A stretch of DNA of 64,000 nt, from assembly GCA_035275405.1 (NCBI GenBank), contig DATEMU010000012.1, positions 1 through 64,000 on the forward strand, read 5' to 3'. Made by a program: the position numbers and the translations under genes. The notes under the pieces were generated by a model. The model saw only the letters and a list, made by a program, of their open reading frames with translations, ran no database searches and was not told the DNA's origin. Origin of the DNA: Phycisphaerae bacterium (GTDB taxonomy: Bacteria; Planctomycetota; Phycisphaerae; UBA1845; UTPLA1). Position 1 is the stretch's first letter; the number at the start of each line of letters is the position of its first letter. Of this stretch, positions 24,308 to 42,982 are shown piece after piece.

Positions 24308-24739
24308 CGATAGACAATATCTCAATCACTCTCGGCTAGTTGTTATCCGCAATCCAACAAAGGTAAAACATTTTACCGCGCCCCGGTTGACACTCTATCG
24401 GTCAACACCGATACTTGCCCCGGCCTCGGCAAGGTGCTGCCCTTTTTTTTCAACCGCTTGCCGAGCGTCGGTTGGCGGCAGGGCAGCGGCAATAACTGAG
24501 ACCAGATCTCGGCGATTGCAATTCCGGCCGCCAAAAAATTCCAAAAGGGGCGGAGAGAATCCCACGGCGGATTCGCGGGGGCGGTCGCAACGGACTGGCG
24601 GCCCGTTATTTCCATTGGGAACGGAATCCCAAGACCGCGCGAGTGCGACGGCTCGGACGCGGCGAGAGCGCTCTAATTCTGTCGCGGCGCGGCGAAAATC
24701 GGCGCGGGCGATGTTGTCGGCCGAATGGCATGCACGACC
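24308..24739. other. Intergenic region with promoter and long leader
   Basis: There is no protein-like frame. It contains a strong sigma-70-like promoter at 24387-24415, then a 6-bp inverted repeat (CTTGCC / GGCAAG, 24415-24434) followed nine bases later by eight T residues (24443-24450), and about 290 nt of leader before the glycosyltransferase. A second pair CAACCG / CGGTTG flanks 24452-24475. Attenuation is possible but the stem is weak. Confidence 0.45.
24387..24415 (+). promoter_or_regulatory. Sigma-70-type promoter for the alpha-glucan gene pair
   Basis: A perfect -35 TTGACA (24387-24392), a 17-bp spacer and -10 GATACT (24410-24415, four of six consensus positions). The spacer overlaps an inverted repeat TTGAC/GTCAA (24387-24391 and 24401-24405), which could be an operator. 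The expected start near 24422 gives a leader of about 320 nt before the ATG at 24740. Confidence 0.5.
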
Positions 24740-26113
24740 ATGAGAATTTTCATGCTGGGTTGGGAGTTTCCACCGTTCATCAGCGGCGGTCTGGGCACCG
24801 CCTGCTACGGACTGACCCGCGCGCTGAGTGACCTGGGCCATCATGTCATTTTTCTACTTCCGCAGCCGGTCGCGACGGAATTTGCGACGCACGTTCAACT
24901 GAAGACGCCCGCTTCGGCGTCGCCGGAGCTGTTGGCGGAGGTGTACAAGGCGTACACGCTTTCGGAATTCAAGAACGTTGAATTCCGCGCGATCCCCGCG
25001 ATGCTTCAGCCCTATCGCTCGCCTGACGACACCAGTTATGAGCGGACCGAGTCGGTCACGCAGTCCATGGATGTTCACGATTATCAGCCCCAGGGCGGCG
25101 GTGCGGCCGGGGCAGCGCCTCCGCCGTCGGTCGTGGCCGAGGCGATTCGCGCGGCAGGGGCTTCGGCGCATTATGGCGGGGACATGTTTGCGGAGGCCCA
25201 GCGCTATGCGCGGATCGCCGTTCTCCTGGCGCGCGATGAAAACTTCGACGTGGTCCACGCGCACGATTGGATGACCTATCCGGCGGGGATGGCCGTGGCG
25301 CGGGCCCGCGGCAAACCGCTTGTCGTCCATGTCCACTCGACCGAGTTCGACCGCAGCGGCGAAAACGTTAATCAGAAGATCTACGACATCGAGCGCGAGG
25401 GTGTCCACGCGGCCGATCGAACGATTGCCGTGAGCCATCTGACGCGAAATATTCTGGTGGCCCGGTACGCGGCGCGGAGCGAAAAGGTCGAGGTGGTCTA
25501 CAACGCGATCGATTACAACGGCAACGGCGACAAGGTCGAGCTGCCGCCGGCGATTCAGCGCGACGAGAAGATCGTGCTGTTCCTCGGCCGGATCACGATG
25601 CAGAAAGGACCGGAGTATTTTCTGGCGGCGGCCAAGAAGGTGCTGGGGCATGTCAAGAACGTCCGCTTCGTGATGGCCGGCAGCGGCGACATGACGCGGC
25701 GCTCGATCGAACTGGCGGCGGAACTGGGGATTGGCCACAAAGTCGTGTTCACGGGCTTTCTCCGGGGCGATGACGTGGCGCGTATTTTCAAAATGGCGGA
25801 CTTGTATGTCATGCCCAGTGTGAGCGAGCCTTTTGGCATCGCCCCGTTGGAGGCACTTTCGCACGATGTACCGGTTCTGATCTCCAAGCAATCCGGCGTG
25901 TCGGAGATTCTGACGCACGTGCTCAAGGTGGATTTCTGGGACATCGACGAGATGGCCAACAAGATCATTGCGGTCCTGCGCCATCCGCCGCTGCAGAATA
26001 CGCTGCGAGAACACGGCAGCTTCGAAATTCAGAAACTTACCTGGCGGGATTCGGCCGCCCAATGTGTCCGCGTGTACGGCGACGCGATCGCCGCGCGGCC
26101 GGGAACTCGTTGA
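24740..26113 (+). CDS. GT4-type glycosyltransferase, starch/glycogen synthase-like
   Basis: A 457-residue GT-B fold enzyme that likely uses a nucleotide sugar to extend or build an alpha-glucan or disaccharide. The start MRIFMLGWEFPPFISGGLGT is diagnostic of the GT4/GT5 group: the GGLG loop contacts the nucleotide sugar. VVHAHDWMTYPAG follows, and the C-terminal half has LGRITMQKGPEYFL, GSGDMTRRS and the E-x7-E donor motif SEPFGIAPLEALSHDVPVL. An ATG five codons upstream is possible, but this one matches the family start. Its stop overlaps the GH57 amylase start by one base (TGATG), so the two enzymes are co-translated and probably act on the same glucan. Confidence 0.88.
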   Translation: MRIFMLGWEFPPFISGGLGTACYGLTRALSDLGHHVIFLLPQPVATEFATHVQLKTPASASPELLAEVYKAYTLSEFKNVEFRAIPAMLQPYRSPDDTSYERTESVTQSMDVHDYQPQGGGAAGAAPPPSVVAEAIRAAGASAHYGGDMFAEAQRYARIAVLLARDENFDVVHAHDWMTYPAGMAVARARGKPLVVHVHSTEFDRSGENVNQKIYDIEREGVHAADRTIAVSHLTRNILVARYAARSEKVEVVYNAIDYNGNGDKVELPPAIQRDEKIVLFLGRITMQKGPEYFLAAAKKVLGHVKNVRFVMAGSGDMTRRSIELAAELGIGHKVVFTGFLRGDDVARIFKMADLYVMPSVSEPFGIAPLEALSHDVPVLISKQSGVSEILTHVLKVDFWDIDEMANKIIAVLRHPPLQNTLREHGSFEIQKLTWRDSAAQCVRVYGDAIAARPGTR

Positions 26114-27282
26114 TGGCTTCGGTCTGTTTCTATTTTCAAGTCCACCAGCCCTACCGGCTGCGGCGCTATTCCATCTTCGACGTCGAGCAAAATTATTTCG
26201 ACGACCACAAGAACGCCGAGATTTGCAACAAGGTCGCGAACAAATGCTATCTGCCCGCCAATCAATGCATCCTCGACCTGATTCGCGTTCACGAGGGGCG
26301 GTTTAGGGTCTCCTATTCCATTACCGGCGTCGTCCTGGACCAGTTTATCTATTACCGGCCGGAGGTGATTGACAGCTTCAAACGGTTGGCCGATACCGGT
26401 TGCGTCGAATTTCTCGCGGAGACTTTTTACCACAGCCTCTCTTTTATCTACTCGCCGACGGAATTCGCCGCGCAGATTGCCGCGCAGCAGGCCAAGATCA
26501 AGGAACTGTTCGGCCAGACGAGCCAGGTCTTCCGCAACACGGAACTGATATACAACAACTCCGTCGCCAAGGCGGCCGAGGCCCTGGGGTTCAAAGCCGT
26601 GATCGCCGAGGGGGCGGACAAGTATCTGGGCCACCGCTCGCCGACCTACGTCTATCGCCCGCCCAACAGCAAGATCAGCGTCCTGCTCAAGAACTACCGG
26701 CTCTCGGACGACATTGCCTTTCGCTTTTCGAATCGCGGCTGGACGGAATGGCCGCTCACGGCGGAGAAGTTTGCGAAATGGGTCGATCAGGTGAACGGCA
26801 ACGGTTACACGGTCAATCTGTTCATGGACTACGAGACCTTCGGCGAGCACCAGTGGACCGAGACCGGCATCTTTGATTTTCTGTACCACATGCCCGGCGA
26901 GGTGATGAAAAACGGCAAGAACGACTTTAAGACGCCGAGCGAGGTCGTAGCGGCGTATCCGCCATCGGGCGATTTCAATGCGCCGGATCTCATCAGTTGG
27001 GCGGACACGGAGCGGGACTTGTCGGCGTGGCTCGGCAACGCGATGCAGTCCAATGCCCTGCAGGAGATTTACGCCCTGGAGAAGGCGGTCAAGGCGACGG
27101 AGGACCCGCAGCTTCTGCACGACTGGCGGCGGCTGCAGACCTCGGATCATTTCTATTACATGTGCACCAAGTATTTCGCCGACGGCGACGTACACAAGTA
27201 CTTCAACCCGTACGAATCGCCCTATGACAGCTACATCAACTTCATGAACGTATTGGATAATATCGCGTCGCGGACGAAATAA
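26113..27282 (+). CDS. Glycoside hydrolase family 57 (alpha-amylase/glucanotransferase type)
   Basis: This 389-residue cytoplasmic enzyme acts on alpha-1,4 (or 1,6) glucans with retention of configuration. GH57 landmarks are present: motif 1 FQVHQPYRL at the very start, the nucleophile-region motif FKAVIAEGADKYLG with E166, and motif 4 LFMDYETFGEHQW with D239 as the expected acid/base. The length is short for the family but typical of bacterial GH57 proteins partnered with a GT4 glycosyltransferase. Depending on the member it may be an amylase, a 4-alpha-glucanotransferase or a branching enzyme; sequence alone does not decide. No signal peptide, so it works on an intracellular polymer. Confidence 0.9.
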   Translation: MASVCFYFQVHQPYRLRRYSIFDVEQNYFDDHKNAEICNKVANKCYLPANQCILDLIRVHEGRFRVSYSITGVVLDQFIYYRPEVIDSFKRLADTGCVEFLAETFYHSLSFIYSPTEFAAQIAAQQAKIKELFGQTSQVFRNTELIYNNSVAKAAEALGFKAVIAEGADKYLGHRSPTYVYRPPNSKISVLLKNYRLSDDIAFRFSNRGWTEWPLTAEKFAKWVDQVNGNGYTVNLFMDYETFGEHQWTETGIFDFLYHMPGEVMKNGKNDFKTPSEVVAAYPPSGDFNAPDLISWADTERDLSAWLGNAMQSNALQEIYALEKAVKATEDPQLLHDWRRLQTSDHFYYMCTKYFADGDVHKYFNPYESPYDSYINFMNVLDNIASRTK

Positions 27283-35181: not shown

Positions 35182-36672
35182 TCAACCCCGTATTCGCTTG
35201 ATAATGTCGGTCGTGCTCCGGCCTTCTAGCAGCGGGGCCAGCAGTACTTTCCCACCATATTTCTCGACGAACTCCTGACCCGCGACCGTCTTGCCGGACC
35301 AGTCGGCGCCTTTGAGGAGGATGTCGGGGCGGACGGCTTCGATCAGTTTCGCGGGCGTGTCGTCGTCGAAGAGGACGACGTAGTCGACGTCGGCGAGAGC
35401 GGCCAGCACCGCGGCGCGGTCGTCCTGGGCGACGATGGGGCGGCCGTCGCCTTTGCCGAGGCGGCGGACGGAGGCGTCGGAGTTGAGACCGACGACGAGC
35501 AGGTCGGCGTGCTGTTTGCAGAAGGCGAAGTTGGCGACGTGACCGGCGTGGAGGAGGTCGAAGCAGCCGTTGGTGAAGGCGATTTTCTCATGCCGCGCGC
35601 GGCGGCGGGCGAGTTCCGGGAGGAGGTGGTCGAGGGTGCGGACTTTGCCGAGCGTTTTGTGGTGTTCGAGGAGGATCTCCCCGACGACTTCTTCGCGCGT
35701 GATGGGGACGCAGCCGAATTTTTCGACTTCGAGGCCGCCGGCGACATTGGCGAGGGCGACGGCCTCGCGCCAGTCGGCGCCAGCCGCGACGGCGACGGCG
35801 AGAGCAGCGAGGACTTCATCGCCCGCGCCGGTCACGTCGTACACATCGCGGGATTTGGTCGGAATATGCTCGAAGGCCCCGCCGGGGCCGATCAGGGCGG
35901 CGCCCTCGGCGTCGAGCGTGACACATGCGTAGCCGGTCTGGCAGGCGGCGATGATCTTTGACGCGGCGCCCTTGACGGCGGCGACGCTGCGCAGGCGGGC
36001 GCCGATCAGCTTCTCTGTTTCCGTGCGGTTCGGCGTGACGATCGTCGCCCCAGAGTATCGACTGTAGTCGGTGAGGTTGGCGGGGTCGACGAGAACGGGG
36101 AGCTTGCGCTTTTTCGCGGCGGCGATGACGGCTTGCGCGGTCTTCGGCGTGATTACGCCCTTGTGATAGTCTTCGATGCAGACGGCCCCGCAGCCGGTGA
36201 GCCGTTCTTCGAGGCGGGCGAGAAGCAAATCGGCGGTCGTGTCGTCCAGTGGGTCGGAGTTCTCATCGTCGATGCGGATGAGCTGTTGGCGGTGGCGATG
36301 CTGCGCGAGACCGACGAGGCGCGTCTTGCGCGTGGTGGGGCGATCTTTGATACGGACGAGACCGGATGCGTCCGCGCCGGCCTTCGTCAGCAGCGCGCTG
36401 AGCAGTTCAGAATCCGCGTCTTCGCCGGCGATGCCGAGACAATTCGCCGTCGCGCCGAGCGCGGCGATGTCCGCGGCGACGGAACCGGCGCCGCCCAGCG
36501 CATCCTCCTGGCGAACGACGCGCAAGACCGGGACGGGCGCTTCGGGGCTGATCCGCTCGGCGTCGCCGTAGAGATAGCGGTCGATCATGAAGTCGCCGAC
36601 GACAAGGATGCGGCGGCCGGCGGCTCGGTCGAGGATTTCACAGAGTCGTTCCCACATATATCTGCGTGTCAT
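35182..36672 (-). CDS. hldE: Bifunctional heptose 7-phosphate kinase / heptose 1-phosphate adenylyltransferase
   Basis: A 496-residue two-domain enzyme of ADP-heptose synthesis for lipopolysaccharide cores. Residues about 20-330 are a PfkB/ribokinase-type kinase (VVGDFMIDRYLYG; GGAGSVAADIAALGA; DVTGAGDEVLAALAVA). Residues about 365-496 are a cytidylyltransferase-like adenylyltransferase (FTNGCFDLLHAGHV with the HxGH motif; LLKGADWSGKTVAG; GRSTTDIIKRIR). Length matches E. coli-type HldE. MWERL five codons inside is an alternative start; neither has a clear ribosome site. Presence implies an outer membrane with heptose-containing LPS, consistent with a Gram-negative envelope. Confidence 0.95.
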   Translation of the reverse strand: MTRRYMWERLCEILDRAAGRRILVVGDFMIDRYLYGDAERISPEAPVPVLRVVRQEDALGGAGSVAADIAALGATANCLGIAGEDADSELLSALLTKAGADASGLVRIKDRPTTRKTRLVGLAQHRHRQQLIRIDDENSDPLDDTTADLLLARLEERLTGCGAVCIEDYHKGVITPKTAQAVIAAAKKRKLPVLVDPANLTDYSRYSGATIVTPNRTETEKLIGARLRSVAAVKGAASKIIAACQTGYACVTLDAEGAALIGPGGAFEHIPTKSRDVYDVTGAGDEVLAALAVAVAAGADWREAVALANVAGGLEVEKFGCVPITREEVVGEILLEHHKTLGKVRTLDHLLPELARRRARHEKIAFTNGCFDLLHAGHVANFAFCKQHADLLVVGLNSDASVRRLGKGDGRPIVAQDDRAAVLAALADVDYVVLFDDDTPAKLIEAVRPDILLKGADWSGKTVAGQEFVEKYGGKVLLAPLLEGRSTTDIIKRIRG

Positions 36673-37051: not shown

Positions 37052-38347
37052 ATGCGGATCATCGCCGTTGCCAACCAAAAGGGAGGCTGTGGAAAGACGA
37101 CCATCGTCATCAATCTGGCAGCGTGTCTGGCCCGCGAGGGGCAGCGGACGCTGGCGGTTGATCTCGATCCGCAGGGGCATTGCGCGCTCGGTCTTCTCGT
37201 TCCCGAGGAACAGATCGAAGTGAACATCGCCGACGTGCTGCTCGCCGACGGTGCGGAGGGCGCGCCGGACATGTCGCGGGTGACGTGGCAGATCTCCAGC
37301 CAATTCGACCTGATTCCGGCGAAGACGGATTTGTCGCGGCTCGAACAAAAACTTGCCGGCGTCGAGGGGCGCGAGCAGCGCCTGGCGCGGGCGCTCGAGA
37401 GCGTCCGGGATAAGTACGACTTCGTCCTGATTGACACGCCGCCGACGATCGGCTTCCTGACGCAGAGCGCGCTGGCGGCGGCGGGCGAGATTGTTGTGCC
37501 CGTGGATACGGGCTATTTCGCGCTGCACGGCCTGTCGAAACAGCTCGATACCATCCGTGAGCTTCGGGAGTACACCGGCAAGGCGCTGACGGTCCGCATC
37601 CTGGCGAACCTCTATGATGTGCGGACCAAGCTGGCCCGGGAGATCCTCGCGGAGCTGCGAAAACGGCATGGCGACGCGATGTTCAAGAGCTTTATCAACT
37701 TCAACACCAAGCTCAAGGAGAGCACCAGCCTGGGCCAACCGATCACCGAATACGACGCGGCGTCGAGCGGGTGTCGCGACTTCGTGCGCTTTGCGCGCGA
37801 ATTGATTGCGCTGGAATCCTCGCCGGTCCTCTCCACGTCGGCGGCGATCCGGGACATGGTCGCCGAGCCGGTCTCCGTTTCCGCGCCGGCGATGTCCGTC
37901 GGGATTGCGTCCGGCGCACAGGAGGACATTCTGGCGCGGGCCGATGAGCTGGCGGCCAATGCGACGCGGCTTCTGGCGACGAGCCGGACACTTCTCGGCC
38001 CCTCGCCGGGAGAACAAAAAATGCGCGGGCCCGCCACGCCGCGCGAGACGGAACAGAAGATTGAGTTGATCTACGGCGCGCGGGCCGTGGATCATGGCGC
38101 GGTCTTCGTGGTCGCCGCAGCGGGTGCAAGGAACGTGCGGCTGGCGGGCTCATTCAACGATTGGAACCCGGAGCGGACGCCGATGTTTCCTGTCCGGGAC
38201 GGGATCTTCCAGGCACGGCTTCCGCTTCCACCGGGCAAGTACAGCTATCGCTACGTGGTGGACGGCTACTGGCAGCGCGACCCGGCGAACGAGCGCTTTG
38301 AGGCGAACCCGTACGGGGAACTCAATAGCGTAGTGATCGTGCAATAG
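37052..38347 (+). CDS. ParA/Soj-type ATPase fused to a CBM48 glycogen-binding domain
   Basis: 431 residues in two parts. Residues 1 to about 255 are a complete ParA/MinD-family ATPase: deviant Walker A KGGCGKTT (10-17) with the signature lysine, switch I-like DLDPQGHCALGLL, Walker B-like FVLIDTPPTIGFLTQSAL and later VPVDTGYFALHGL. After a linker with helical and Pro/Ala-rich stretches, residues about 345-431 form an E-set/CBM48 or AMPK-beta-like glycogen-binding domain: VRLAGSFNDWNPERTPM, LPPGKYSYRYVVDGYW, FEANPYGELNSVV. CBM48 proteins bind alpha-glucans, and ParA proteins position cargo over the nucleoid or membrane. The fusion suggests placing or counting glycogen granules; that is inference. 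No parB follows. Confidence 0.88.
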   Translation: MRIIAVANQKGGCGKTTIVINLAACLAREGQRTLAVDLDPQGHCALGLLVPEEQIEVNIADVLLADGAEGAPDMSRVTWQISSQFDLIPAKTDLSRLEQKLAGVEGREQRLARALESVRDKYDFVLIDTPPTIGFLTQSALAAAGEIVVPVDTGYFALHGLSKQLDTIRELREYTGKALTVRILANLYDVRTKLAREILAELRKRHGDAMFKSFINFNTKLKESTSLGQPITEYDAASSGCRDFVRFARELIALESSPVLSTSAAIRDMVAEPVSVSAPAMSVGIASGAQEDILARADELAANATRLLATSRTLLGPSPGEQKMRGPATPRETEQKIELIYGARAVDHGAVFVVAAAGARNVRLAGSFNDWNPERTPMFPVRDGIFQARLPLPPGKYSYRYVVDGYWQRDPANERFEANPYGELNSVVIVQ

Positions 38348-38424: not shown

Positions 38425-38473
38425 TTGAATTGCCAGGATCGTGGCATTACAATTCATTGAACAAGCGCTTGTT
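38425..38473 (+). promoter_or_regulatory. Promoter with perfect 14-bp palindromic operator upstream of the TetR gene
   Basis: TTGAAT (38425-38430), a 17-bp spacer and TACAAT (38448-38453, five of six consensus) form a good sigma-70 promoter. AACAAGCGCTTGTT (38460-38473) is a perfect palindrome right at the expected transcription start and 12 bp before the TetR ATG. This is the usual arrangement for an autorepressed TetR operator. Confidence 0.6.
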
Positions 38474-38485
38474 TGGAGCTGGTTG

Positions 38486-39073
38486 ATGTCTGGACTCGCC
38501 CTCGACAAGAAGGATCAGATTCATCGCGTTGCGTGCCGGCTCTTTCGGGAGCAGGGCTTTCACGGCGCGAGTGTCCGCGACATCGCTGAGGAAGTTGGCC
38601 TCGTTGGAGGCAGCCTGTACGCGCACATCGAGAGCAAGGATGACGTCTTGTGGGAGATTGTCGATGCCGCGGCGGATCGTTTTTTCGCGGCGCTGCGGCC
38701 GATCGTCGAGGCCAACCTTGCCATTGTTCAAAAGCTCCGCCAGGCGATCGTCGCGCACGTCGAAGTGATCGCGGGCGATCTGGATGCGGCGGCGGTGTAC
38801 ACGGTGGAGTGGCGGCACCTGGCTCCCGAACGGCGCAAGGTCTTTACGAAGCGGCGCGACGAATACGAGGCCCTGTTTCGCCGGCTGGTTCGCGAGGCGA
38901 TGCAGCAGGGGTTCATTGCGACGGCCGACGAGGCGATGGCCACGCGATTCATCCTCTCGTCGCTGAATTACCTGTTTACCTGGTACAAGCCGGATGGCCG
39001 GATGACGCCGGACGAGGTGGGGCGGATGATGGCGGATTACATACTGGATGGGTTGAAGCGGAGGACGGCGTGA
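38486..39073 (+). CDS. TetR/AcrR-family regulator, probable repressor of the paa genes
   Basis: 195 residues from the ATG after GGAG; the frame is open further upstream but that would overlap the promoter and operator. Residues about 8-52 are the TetR helix-turn-helix (AVACRLF-like start, [22 protein letters not shown]) with [11 protein letters not shown] following. The remainder is an all-helical ligand-binding and dimer domain. The gene lies directly upstream of paaABCD with one base between stop and start, so it is co-transcribed. By analogy with PaaR and related regulators, the inducer would be phenylacetyl-CoA or another acyl-CoA. That assignment is inference from position. Confidence 0.8.
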
Positions 39074-39074
39074 C

Positions 39075-40067
39075 ATGGTTGCAATGAACCCGAACCTCAT
39101 GAATGACCGACCGGGTGATCCGGGGTATGAGGAGCATCTGGCGGCGTTCGAGGCGCGGATCGCGCAGGGCGACAAGGTGGAGCCCGGCGACTGGATGCCG
39201 CGGGACTATAGAGATCAACTGATACGCCTCATCCACGTCCACGCGAACAGCGAAATCTGCGGGGCGCTCCCGGAAGGGACGTGGATTCCGCACGCGCCGA
39301 GCCTGAAGCGCAAGCTGGCCCTCGTGGCGAAGGTGCAGGATGAGGTGGGGCACGGCCAACTCCTCTATCGTGCCGCCGAGACGCTGGGCAAGCCGCGCGA
39401 GGAGATGATCGATGAACTGATCTCCGGCAAGGCGAAATATTCCAACGTGTTTCACTATCCGGCGGAGACGTGGGCGGATGTCTGCGTGATCGCGTGGCTG
39501 ATCGACGCGGCGGCGATTGTGAATCAGGCCATGATGGCCGAGGGGTCGTACGGGCCCTACGCCCGGGCACTGAAGCGCATCTGTTATGAAGAGGCGTTTC
39601 ATCTGACGCACGGTTACGACATGTGCATCTCGCTGGCGACGGGTACGAAGCTCCAGCGGGAGATGCTCCAGGACGCGGTCAATCGCTGGTGGAAGCCGAT
39701 CATGATGTTCCACGGGCCGGCGGATAAGGAATCGACGCACACGGCGCAGCTTATGCGCTGGAAGATCAAGCTCAAAACCAACGACGAGCAGCGGCAGGAG
39801 TTTCTGCGCAAGTACGTGCCGAAGATGATCAACCTGGGGATCAAGATCCCGGCGGAGTGGGAGATGCGCTACGACGAAAAGGCGCGGGCGTGGCGGTACA
39901 AGGAGCCGGATTGGGAAGAGTTCAAGACGGTCGTGCGGGGCAACGGACCGGTCAGCGCGAAGCGGCTGGAGACGCGGCGGCTGGCGCATGAGCATGGGCG
40001 GTGGATACGGGAGGCGCTGACGGCGGCCGCCGAAGGGCGACGCGTGCCGATGCCGGGAGTGAATTAA
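39075..40067 (+). CDS. paaA: Phenylacetyl-CoA 1,2-epoxidase catalytic subunit
   Basis: A 330-residue di-iron subunit that, with PaaC, epoxidises the ring of phenylacetyl-CoA with O2. The four-helix-bundle ligand motifs are visible as [12 protein letters not shown] and [14 protein letters not shown] (ExxH pairs). The CoA- and subunit-contact regions [15 protein letters not shown] and [17 protein letters not shown] match PaaA. Length is typical (about 310-330). It begins one base after the TetR stop. Next comes a repeat-bearing spacer and paaB. Confidence 0.95.
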
Positions 40068-40068
40068 G

Positions 40069-40154
40069 AATGGCGAATAGCGAATAGCGAAATCAGAATA
40101 GGCGTGGCGTACGCACTCTTCTTTTCGCTATTCGCTATTCATAATTCGCTATTA
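40069..40154. repeat. Hairpin of paired GAATAGC arrays between paaA and paaB
   Basis: GAATAGCGAATAGCGAAA (40075-40092) is exactly complementary to 40123-40140, an 18-bp perfect stem with a 30-nt loop. Further GAATTATGAAT-like units extend the right arm to 40153, three bases before the paaB ATG. The unit is the same as in the arrays at 16364, 32912 and 33014. Confidence 0.8.
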
Positions 40155-40156
40155 TC

Positions 40157-40456
40157 ATGGATACCCAATGGCCGGTCTTTGAAGTCTTCCACCAGACGTC
40201 GCGCGGGGAGCCGCACGTGCACGTCGGGTCGATCCATGCGCCGGATGCGGAGACGGCGCTGATGCTGGCCAAGGAGCAGTTCGGCCGGCGGCAGGCGTGC
40301 GTGAATCTGTGGGTCGTGCCGGTGGAGGCCGTGGTCAGCACCGACTACGCGGACGCCGACCTGTTTCAGCCGGGGACGGACAAGAGCTATCGCGAGGCGT
40401 TCGGGTATGAGACGACGAAGCGGGCGAAAGCGGTAGGCGATGCTTCGGAGATTTGA
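40157..40456 (+). CDS. paaB: Phenylacetyl-CoA epoxidase subunit PaaB
   Basis: A 99-residue small structural subunit of the epoxidase, which bridges PaaAC heterodimers. The sequence WPVFEVFHQTSRGEPHVHVGSIHAPDAE and AKEQFGRRQACVNLWVVP are characteristic of the family. The ATG lies at the right edge of the hairpin repeat; no clear ribosome site precedes it, so translation may depend on the fold of that repeat. Twenty-one bases separate it from paaC. Confidence 0.93.
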   Translation: MDTQWPVFEVFHQTSRGEPHVHVGSIHAPDAETALMLAKEQFGRRQACVNLWVVPVEAVVSTDYADADLFQPGTDKSYREAFGYETTKRAKAVGDASEI

Positions 40457-40477
40457 TTTTCAGATTTGAGATGAGCC

Positions 40478-41326
40478 ATGGCAACGACGATTGAAAAACC
40501 GCAGCTTCGCGGCGAGACCAAGGCGGCCGTCGTCGATCTGCTTTATCGCCTCGCGGACGACGCGCTCTTCATCGGTCATCGCAATTCGGAGTGGACGGGG
40601 ATCGGGCCGATTCTGGAGGAGGACATCGCGTTTTCGTCGATGGCGCAGGACAAGATGGGGCATGCGACGGTGCTGTACGGGATGCTGCACGAATTGGGCG
40701 AGGCCGAACCCAACGCGCTGGCATTCGGGCGGAAGGCCGAGCAGTATCGGTGCTCAAGCCTTGTGGTGCTGGAGTGTCTGGCGGAGGGCGGCGCGGCGGC
40801 GGAGCTTTCCAACAATCCGGTGCGCGATGAACTGCTTTCGCGGGGCGATTGGGCCGTCAGTCTCGTGCGGCAGTTTCTCTTTTCGGAGGCGGACGCCCTG
40901 CGCTGGGCGGCGCTGGAAGGCAGTGCGTACGAACCGCTCGCGCAGTTTGCCAAAAAACTGCGCGGCGAGATCAAGTATCACACCATGCACGGGCGGATCA
41001 TGATGGAAAAGCTGGGCCGGGCCGCGGAGAGCAAGGGGCGCTTGCAGACCTCACTGGATTCGCTGTATCCCCACGCGCTGGGGCTGTTTGAGCCGACGAA
41101 GCATGATGCGGCGCTGACCGAGGCAGGCATCTGCCCGCGCGAGGCGGAGCTTTGCAAGGCTTGGGAGGCGCAGGTTGTGGCGATCCTCGAGCGCTGCGGG
41201 TTGAAAGCCCCGCGCAATGCGAAGCCCGTGTACGGCGGTCGGCAGGGCAAGCACCCGCCGGAGATGCGCGAGGTTCTGGATGCGCTGCAGAAGGTGTACC
41301 GGCTCGATCCGGCGGCACAATGGTAA
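40478..41326 (+). CDS. paaC: Phenylacetyl-CoA epoxidase structural subunit PaaC
   Basis: A 282-residue ferritin-like partner of PaaA that has lost the di-iron centre in the family. The fold is seen in LADDALFIGHRNSEWTGIGP and LEEDIAFSSMAQDKMGHATV. Regions near KKLRGEIKYHTMHGRIMM match PaaC. The C-terminal tail (YGGRQGKHPPEM) is normal. It overlaps paaD by 7 bp (ATGGTAA), showing translational coupling. Confidence 0.93.
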   Translation: MATTIEKPQLRGETKAAVVDLLYRLADDALFIGHRNSEWTGIGPILEEDIAFSSMAQDKMGHATVLYGMLHELGEAEPNALAFGRKAEQYRCSSLVVLECLAEGGAAAELSNNPVRDELLSRGDWAVSLVRQFLFSEADALRWAALEGSAYEPLAQFAKKLRGEIKYHTMHGRIMMEKLGRAAESKGRLQTSLDSLYPHALGLFEPTKHDAALTEAGICPREAELCKAWEAQVVAILERCGLKAPRNAKPVYGGRQGKHPPEMREVLDALQKVYRLDPAAQW

Positions 41327-41838
41327 ATGACGTGAACGACGTGCAGGTCCAACCCGCGATCGATTTGAGCCCCGTCTGGGAGGCGCTGGCCAATGTCAGC
41401 GACCCCGAGATACCGGTCTTGAATGTGCTGGAGATGGGCATGATTCCCGCCGTGCGCCTCGAGGGCGAGACGGTCGTTGTGCAGATGACGCCGACGTTCG
41501 CGGGCTGCCCGGCGCTGGACCTGATCCGCGAGAACATTCGCCATGCCGTGCGGGCCGCGGGGTTTGAGGACGTTCGCGTCGATGTCGTTTTCGATCCACC
41601 GTGGACGAGCGACCGGATCACGCCGGAGGGGCTGCGCAAGCTGAAGGAGTTCGGGCTCGCGCCACCGTTGCGGTGTGGGACGACGGGGGCGACGTTTCAG
41701 GCGCTGCAAAAAGTGGCCTGTCCTTATTGCAACTCGACAGAGACGACGCTGGAATCGATCTTCGGCCCGACGCTCTGCCGGGCGATTCACTACTGCAATG
41801 CGTGCCGGCAGTCGTTTGAGCAATTCAAGCCGGTTTGA
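41320..41838 (+). CDS. paaD: Fe-S/MIP18-type maturation factor PaaD
   Basis: 172 residues. Residues about 15-105 are a MIP18/DUF59 domain (VSDPEIPVLNVLEMGMI, TPTFAGCPALDLIRENI). The C-terminus is a zinc-ribbon-like segment CPYCNSTETTL...YCNACRQSFEQF that is specific to PaaD. The protein is needed for assembly of the iron-sulfur part of the epoxidase (in PaaE). The ATG at 41320 overlaps the paaC stop; longer upstream frames are antiphase to paaC and disfavoured. It is the last paa gene in this cluster: paaE (reductase), paaK and the downstream ring-opening genes are not in the window. Confidence 0.9.
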   Translation: MVNDVNDVQVQPAIDLSPVWEALANVSDPEIPVLNVLEMGMIPAVRLEGETVVVQMTPTFAGCPALDLIRENIRHAVRAAGFEDVRVDVVFDPPWTSDRITPEGLRKLKEFGLAPPLRCGTTGATFQALQKVACPYCNSTETTLESIFGPTLCRAIHYCNACRQSFEQFKPV

Positions 41839-41902
41839 GGCGAACCGGCTCATCCCTGCCGTCGTAGTATCCGCAAAGCCGACTCTCTTGAAAGGAGCAT
41901 GC

Positions 41903-42418
41903 ATGGCCCATTACTACGATTCGATTCCAGAGTCGATACGCAAATTAACCAACCAGCAGGCCATTGATCGCTACGTCGCCGGGGCGGAGGTGCCCGCCAG
42001 GGCGATTGCCGGTCTGACGACCGAGCAGCTTCTGGCCGTTCCGGTGCCTGGGACGTGGAGCATCCAGCAGATCGTCGTGCACCTGGCGGACAGCGATCTG
42101 ACCGCGGCGTATCGGATGAAGCGGATGATCGCGGAGGAGCGGCCGCTGCTGGATGCGTTGGATGAAACCGCGTTTGCGGCCCGATTGGGTTACGAGGAAC
42201 AGCCCATCCGCGAGGTCTGTGAGATTTTCCGACTTAACCGGAAACTCCTCACCCCTATCCTGCGACGGCAGCCGGAGTCGGCGTTTGAGCGGACGGCGGA
42301 GCATCCGGAAGTCGGAACCGTCACGCTCGGGCAGGTATTGCGAACCTATGCTTACCACGTCGACCACCACATGGAGTTTCTGAAGAAAAAGCGCGAAATG
42401 CTCGGCGCGCCGTTATGA
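41903..42418 (+). CDS. DinB-family putative metalloenzyme (tandem copy 1)
   Basis: A 171-residue four-helix DinB superfamily protein, with AAAGGAG before the ATG. The metal-binding His positions are present: VHLADSDLTAAYR and, near the C-terminus, YAYHVDHHMEFLKKKREM. Members act as thiol-dependent transferases or hydrolases or are uncharacterised stress proteins. The neighbour at 42467-42982 is a close paralogue from end to end. They sit after paaD in the same direction with a 64-bp gap. Function in the operon is unknown. Confidence 0.8.
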   Translation: MAHYYDSIPESIRKLTNQQAIDRYVAGAEVPARAIAGLTTEQLLAVPVPGTWSIQQIVVHLADSDLTAAYRMKRMIAEERPLLDALDETAFAARLGYEEQPIREVCEIFRLNRKLLTPILRRQPESAFERTAEHPEVGTVTLGQVLRTYAYHVDHHMEFLKKKREMLGAPL

Positions 42419-42466
42419 TCATGCCCACCCTGCACCTGAGAGCGGCTATTTCGGAAGGGAACACTC

Positions 42467-42982
42467 ATGGCGCATTACTACGATTCGATTCCTGAGCCGG
42501 TACGCAAATTAACCAACGGGCAGGCCATCGAGCGCTACGCCGCCGGGGCGGAAGTGCCGGGCAAGGCGATTGCGGGTCTGACGTCCGAGCAGCTTCGGGC
42601 GTTTCCCGTGCCGGGGACGTGGAGCATTCAGCAGATCGTCGCGCATCTGACGGACAGCGATCTGATCGCGGCCTATCGGATGAAGCGGATCATCGCGGAG
42701 GATCAGCCGAAGCTGGACTTGTGGGACGAGAACGCTTTTGTGGCGGGACTGCGGTACCAGGACTTGCCCGCGCGAGAGGTGTGCGAACTCTTCCGGCTCA
42801 ACCGCACGGTCCTGGCGCACGTACTCCGCGGATTGCCGGACGCGGCGTTTGAACGCACGGCGCTCCACCAGGAGATGGGGCCGATGACGCTGGGCCAGTT
42901 TCTGCGGATTTATGTGAATCACCTGGATCATCACCTGGGGTTCCTGAAGAAGAAGCGCGAGATGCTGGGCGCGCCGTTATGA
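42467..42982 (+). CDS. DinB-family putative metalloenzyme (tandem copy 2)
   Basis: Same length (171) and layout as the preceding gene; identical N-terminus MAHYYDSIPE and C-terminus FLKKKREMLGAPL. Differences are spread through the middle. His residues are kept (AHLTDSDLIAAYR; YVNHLDHHLGFL). GGAAGGGAACACTC precedes the ATG. A tandem duplication followed by divergence is the simple explanation. A dispersed hairpin repeat starts right after its stop. Confidence 0.8.
   Translation: MAHYYDSIPEPVRKLTNGQAIERYAAGAEVPGKAIAGLTSEQLRAFPVPGTWSIQQIVAHLTDSDLIAAYRMKRIIAEDQPKLDLWDENAFVAGLRYQDLPAREVCELFRLNRTVLAHVLRGLPDAAFERTALHQEMGPMTLGQFLRIYVNHLDHHLGFLKKKREMLGAPL

Follow-up and report, generated by a model that had tools for sequence, protein, structure and literature searches.

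A ParA-type ATPase and a CBM48 domain are encoded in a single reading frame

The window, i.e. the whole 64,000-nucleotide stretch of planctomycete DNA analyzed here, harbors a gene whose product combines an N-terminal ParA/Soj-type ATPase domain with a C-terminal AMPK-β-like CBM48 domain (Table 1). Domain searches confirmed both halves as given in a preliminary description of the locus. The complete ATPase, with its KGGCGKTT and DTPPTIGFL motifs, matched Pfam AAA_31 (5.5e-50, residues 1–180), and the tail, which contains the stretches LAGSFNDWNPE and YSYRYVVDGYW, matched both AMPK1_CBM (4.6e-12, residues 357–431; 46.4 bits vs. a Pfam cut-off of 26.8) and CBM_48 (1.6e-8, residues 341–421; 35.2 bits vs. 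a cut-off of 22.4). In sequence searches of the PDB, the ParA part retrieved Myxococcus xanthus ParA (8ray) at 8e-46 as well as Thermus and Helicobacter pylori Soj, while the best match of the tail was the glycogen-binding domain of AMPK β-1 (1z0n, 2e-9). AlphaFold2 modeled both domains with high confidence (pLDDT mostly >93 for the CBM48 domain), whereas the flexible linker between them, which includes one helix, received low confidence. Foldseek groups the ATPase with Soj/ParA; as only ParA-like proteins, and not the CBM fold, were among the matches listed in the structure search of the fusion, the assignment of the CBM is based on sequence.

We scanned public genomes and searched 60 relatives, which yielded 110 fusion loci encoding 94 distinct proteins. 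Indeed, a single frame runs across both domains at 110 of the 110 loci, which rules out two separate genes or a gene-calling artefact, and all 36 members scanned against Pfam matched AAA_31 and AMPK1_CBM, with both CBM models (AMPK1_CBM and CBM_48) again found in 36/36. The direct fusion of ParA to CBM48 is thus real.

Table 1. Features of the fusion gene and its surroundings (positions refer to the window)
Feature	Position	Strand	Basis or remark
GT4 glycosyltransferase	24725..26113	+	Pfam
GH57 glycosidase or branching-type enzyme	26062..27282	+	Glyco_hydro_57 2.6e-74; start may be 26107
HldE-like kinase/cytidylyltransferase	35182..36672	-	Upstream neighbor in 9 window-related loci
ParA-CBM48 fusion gene, 431 aa	37052..38347	+	ATG start, no internal stop; 110 homologous one-frame loci
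ParA/Soj-type ATPase domain, residues 1-255	37052..37816	+	AAA_31 5.5e-50; Soj/ParA structures
Deviant Walker A KGGCGKTT, residues 10-17	37079..37102	+	Signature K10 and catalytic K15 both 94/94
Basic region RTKLAR, residues 191-196	37622..37639	+	Aligned with M. xanthus ParA and with Soj; predicted DNA contact
K220	37709..37711	+	Lys in 94/94; aligned with M. xanthus ParA R238
Amphipathic linker helix, residues 288-309	37913..37978	+	AF2; conserved within the variable linker
AMPK-β-like CBM48 domain, residues 336-431	38057..38344	+	Pfam, PDB match, contact residues; AF2
TetR regulator	38441..39073	+	Next downstream gene; partner's place in other lineages

Residues for ATP, DNA and glucan binding are retained in both halves

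Across the 94 fusion proteins, the median pairwise identity is 57% in the ParA domain and 50% in the CBM, vs. only 21% in the linker. In the ATPase, the aspartates of Motif 2 and Walker B (D37, D39 and D128) are kept in 94/94 proteins. The Motif 2 Asn position of textbook ParA is occupied by an invariant histidine (His43), and a second ParA encoded in the window's genome likewise has a His at this position. In the basic region, R191 and R196 are found in all 94 proteins and K193 in 93. K220 corresponds to R238 of M. xanthus ParA, where an R238E exchange abolished non-specific DNA binding (PMC12462528). The intact basic residues make it likely that the fusion binds the nucleoid.

In the CBM48 domain, W371, R400, W407 and N425 align with W100, K126, W133 and N150 of AMPK β-1, the last of which we take to be a glycogen contact. 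At the sequence level, the glucan-binding residues of the C-terminal region are kept: W371, R400 and W407 are present in 94/94 proteins, the counterpart of K126 thus being an Arg, and N425 in 86/94 (91%). In addition, position 421, which aligns with AMPK β-1 L146, is Tyr or Phe in 94/94. In AMPK-β, glycogen binding fell markedly when the tested contact residues were mutated (PMC2642990), and the CBM48 tail of the fusion likely binds α-glucan. Since the CBM contact residues and the residues of the ParA ATP and DNA sites are all kept, binding to both glucan and nucleoid is likely. Moreover, the functional residues are retained though linker identity is so low, a pattern that points to selection on both the ATPase/DNA and the glucan activities. 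The one conserved element of the linker is a helix in which A304 (93%), L307 (86%) and also L308 are conserved.

Stand-alone CBM48 proteins of about 100–140 residues are common in the phylum, several per genome in some cases, and one is encoded in the window's genome (G000:C3:915316-915591). These proteins could have the same ligand as the fusion.

The fusion is kept in most of one planctomycete class

Among the window's genome and its relatives, about 44 of 61 genomes carry the fusion; it is present in 17/17 genomes of the window's own family and missing from 13/13 of another (f4). Surveyed across Planctomycetota in a sample of 294 genomes, where presence was called by match strength and frame length, the fusion was found in about 18 of 22 members of the same class (Phycisphaerae by record titles) and in one genome only (G118) outside it, i.e. 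it is kept in most of the class and rare elsewhere. By their record titles, the carriers are planctomycetes: Phycisphaerae, Sedimentisphaerales and relatives. Comparison of the fusion tail with plasmid records gave no match.

Two fusion-bearing contigs, L062 and L070, are titled Alphaproteobacteria and Actinomycetes, respectively, and look like mislabeled planctomycete bins; for L062 this is suggested by a match identical to that of L019, a locus from a genome that belongs to the window's own order.

Glycogen genes are neither conserved neighbors nor specific companions of the fusion

The GT4/GH57 α-glucan gene pair that had been pointed out about 10 kb from the fusion is real by Pfam, but its proximity is not conserved in relatives. 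In three genomes (G001, G002 and G013), GH57 lies 0.3, 1.5 and 2.6 Mb away from the fusion, and conserved linkage to GT4/GH57 is ruled out by these distances of 0.3–2.6 Mb wherever both share a contig. Indeed, no glycogen genes were found as conserved neighbors of the fusion, its neighbors being mostly not conserved.

Downstream of the fusion in the window (38441–41838), the TetR gene is followed by PaaA/PaaC-like and PaaD-like genes; this phenylacetyl-CoA epoxidase-type cluster with its regulator is partly kept in close relatives. The window also contains two tandem, nearly alike genes (41675–42982; MAHYYDSIPE...), apparently a recent duplication.

In the 61 genomes, we found no specific co-occurrence of the fusion with glycogen enzymes (PF08323, TIGR01515, GH57). 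A GH13 or GH57 match is present in 39/44 genomes with the fusion and in 17/17 relatives without it; at the thresholds used, neither was found in 5/44 fusion genomes. The starch/glycogen synthase GT5 model PF08323 gave no match at E<=1e-20 in the 61 relatives, a cut that is too strict to judge glycogen synthase in general, as the window's own GT4 matches this model only at 7e-17. With no GT5 match at E<=1e-20 but GH57 and GT4 genes present, α-glucan synthesis in these organisms may be of the GT4 type. The co-occurrence data thus speak neither for nor against glycogen as the ligand, which is directly supported by the CBM itself.

The tail might instead serve as a protein-protein interface, its Ig-like E-set fold contacting no polysaccharide and the fusion positioning or regulating a protein complex. 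Such a role would fit the occurrence of CBM48 in many settings, including the many stand-alone proteins of 100–140 residues in the phylum, as well as the lack of specific co-occurrence with glycogen genes. However, a pure scaffold would not need W371, R400 and W407 in every one of the 94 proteins, N425 in 91% of them and an aromatic residue always at position 421, and we regard this role as decidedly unlikely.

A degenerate FlhG/MinD-like partner is encoded next to the fusion in several lineages

At 22 of the 88 loci with enough sequence, the fusion is directly followed, on the same strand, by a gene that is also its commonest neighbor among 80 loci; the two genes are often spaced by 4–9 bp or overlap. 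The encoded protein matched no Pfam family, and hence has no recognizable ParB DNA-binding domain. In the PDB, a profile of the partner retrieved FlhG and FleN (3e-13), and FlhG is the top fold match of its structure model. The MinD-like domain has lost its P-loop, i.e. it lacks a Walker A motif, and the sole match to the regular expression GxGK[ST] in the partner proteins falls in an N-terminal low-complexity stretch. Near the N-terminus lies a conserved helix, four examples of which are RGIESIAHLFLSQ, RPLSEISHLFLSS, RSMADIARLFLDG and NIGDLADLLLGP.

A partner-like gene also lies directly downstream of the fusion at a locus from a different class of the phylum (L129, G118:C274; 2109–3095, minus strand). 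The start of its product (MKRKKLGRGIEDFIGAF / MKRKKLGRGIEDFIGAFVS) contains a textbook ParB N-terminal motif of the LGRG[LI] type, KKLGRGIEDFI, and its body is degenerate MinD-like. Most of the protein can be aligned to the profile of the partner (hhalign E 1.2e-4, probability 55%). None of the 760 neighboring ORFs in the main locus set carries LG[KR]G[LI] near its start, so that this is no common chance motif. A ParB N-terminal motif like that of the L129 protein binds and activates ParA (PMC12462528). These observations suggest that the partner is an activator or adaptor of the fusion ATPase. The partner protein, with its degenerate FlhG/MinD-like domain, is undescribed and new here.

The partner with its ParB-like helix is thus found at 22/88 informative loci and at L129, but not in the window's family, where it is absent next to the fusion and where genome searches gave FlhG-type matches only, true FlhG in the cases read. 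More generally, in a search for an unlinked partner in genomes lacking an adjacent one, the hits read proved to be regular FlhG proteins whose P-loop is intact. Residue 138 of the ParA pocket is aromatic at 22/22 partner loci, but most members of the window's family have a polar residue here; this co-variation with the partner is suggestive, although it involves only about four changes on the tree and is not significant.

The missing activator-like partner in the window's family, together with intact DNA-binding and CBM residues, would fit a static tether or granule coat, by which α-glucan enzymes or particles would be anchored to the nucleoid but not dynamically positioned. Such a tether would not explain why the full catalytic set of a ParA that turns over is retained, or why the partner of other lineages bears a ParB-type motif, and it appears highly improbable.

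The fusion is distinct from the chromosomal ParA and from known positioning ATPases

The genome from which the window derives encodes a second, Soj-like ParA (G000:C3:265049) and a ParB with the usual KRLGRGL start, which is not linked to the fusion; no ParB gene was found beside the fusion gene. Relatives without the fusion still have other ParA and ParB proteins. Given this other ParA and the unlinked ParB, the fusion is not the ParA of a chromosomal ParABS system, whose canonical components sit elsewhere, also in the relatives devoid of the fusion.

The fusion resembles Soj/ParA of M. xanthus (8ray), Thermus and H. pylori in its ATPase fold and motifs, with 35–40% identity in structural alignments, and keeps their signature and catalytic lysines, Walker B and basic DNA-binding residues. 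It differs from them in its C-terminal CBM48, in not lying beside parB in a genome that has another ParA, in the His that replaces the Motif 2 Asn (N64 in M. xanthus) and in usually having a Cys in Walker A. The tail, in turn, is most similar in sequence to the glycogen-binding domain of the AMPK β subunit, with W100, W133 and N150 kept and K126 changed to Arg, but in the fusion it sits on a ParA and there is no kinase complex. The partner shares an FlhG-like domain with FlhG and FleN, and an N-terminal helix, with the LGRG[LI] motif at L129, with ParB; it differs from the former in having no Walker A and from the latter in having no recognizable DNA-binding domain.

Known cargoes of ParA-type ATPases include DNA, carboxysomes, chemoreceptor arrays and division proteins, and in every characterized ParA system known to us a separate adaptor protein holds the cargo. 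Like McdA of carboxysomes and other ParA/MinD positioning ATPases, the fusion is a ParA-type ATPase for a non-DNA cargo, as proposed here, yet while McdA works with a separate McdB, a cargo-type binding module is joined to the ATPase itself in the fusion. Moreover, McdA lacks the signature lysine (PMC9178275), whereas K10 is present in 94/94 fusion proteins. As in BcsQ of cellulose synthesis, a ParA/MinD-type ATPase would be tied to a polysaccharide, and Pfam CBP_BcsQ also matches the fusion. BcsQ identity is ruled out by a score of 93.8 bits vs. the NCBIfam TIGR03371 cut-off of 157.85, and no bcs or cellulose genes were seen among the conserved neighbors. Judged by the features tested, the fusion belongs to the ParA family and has a new architecture. 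We found no description of a ParA-CBM48 fusion among the open-access literature covered.

Discussion

Our leading reading, which is tentative and unproven, is that the fusion positions or partitions glycogen, as suggested in the preliminary description: an ATP-bound dimer would link α-glucan particles to the nucleoid, whereby the particles would be spread and inherited. The fusion would then act as an extra, non-chromosomal ParA with its own built-in cargo-binding module. An ATP-bound dimer on the nucleoid would display two CBM48 domains that grip α-glucan (glycogen) particles, and the particles would ride on the chromosome and in this manner be distributed, with each daughter cell receiving a share. 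Their release would require ATP hydrolysis, which in several lineages would probably be triggered by the FlhG/MinD-like partner via the ParB-like helix at its N-terminus. For the window's family, candidate triggers are a partner that escaped detection, the glucan itself or the chromosomal ParB, in which this motif occurs too. A built-in binder would not by itself explain directional movement, and the lack of specific co-occurrence with glycogen enzymes and the failure to find the partner in the window's family count against positioning, as do the mostly variable neighbors without glycogen genes and the use of a separate cargo binder by known ParA systems. A dedicated two-component arrangement, in which a glycogen-binding ParA under the control of a pseudo-MinD activator that bears a ParB-like motif both positions and partitions glycogen particles on the nucleoid, we consider unlikely.

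Alternatively, nothing might be transported, and α-glucan or maltodextrin bound to the CBM48 domain might allosterically set the ATPase or dimer state, as in AMPK, where glycogen on the CBM48 domain allosterically inhibits the kinase (PMC2642990). The AMPK-β domains are indeed the nearest relatives of the CBM, no conserved cargo gene lies nearby, the variable linker with its conserved helix could carry a signal, and the partner resembles the regulators FlhG and FleN. However, no target of such a signal was identified, and the DNA-binding residues are conserved as fully as the catalytic ones. We deem such sensing somewhat unlikely, and in equal measure an output by which carbohydrate status is relayed to chromosome segregation, replication or division.

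If the fusion indeed links α-glucan particles to the nucleoid, the cargo list of ParA would be extended to a storage polysaccharide, and the ATPase, rather than an adaptor, would hold the cargo; if it acts as a sensor, carbohydrate status would be tied directly to nucleoid-based organization. The idea becomes testable with two purified proteins thanks to the undescribed partner, in which a dead MinD-like domain carries a ParB-like motif. In these planctomycetes, the fusion may link the cell's sugar store to the chromosome.
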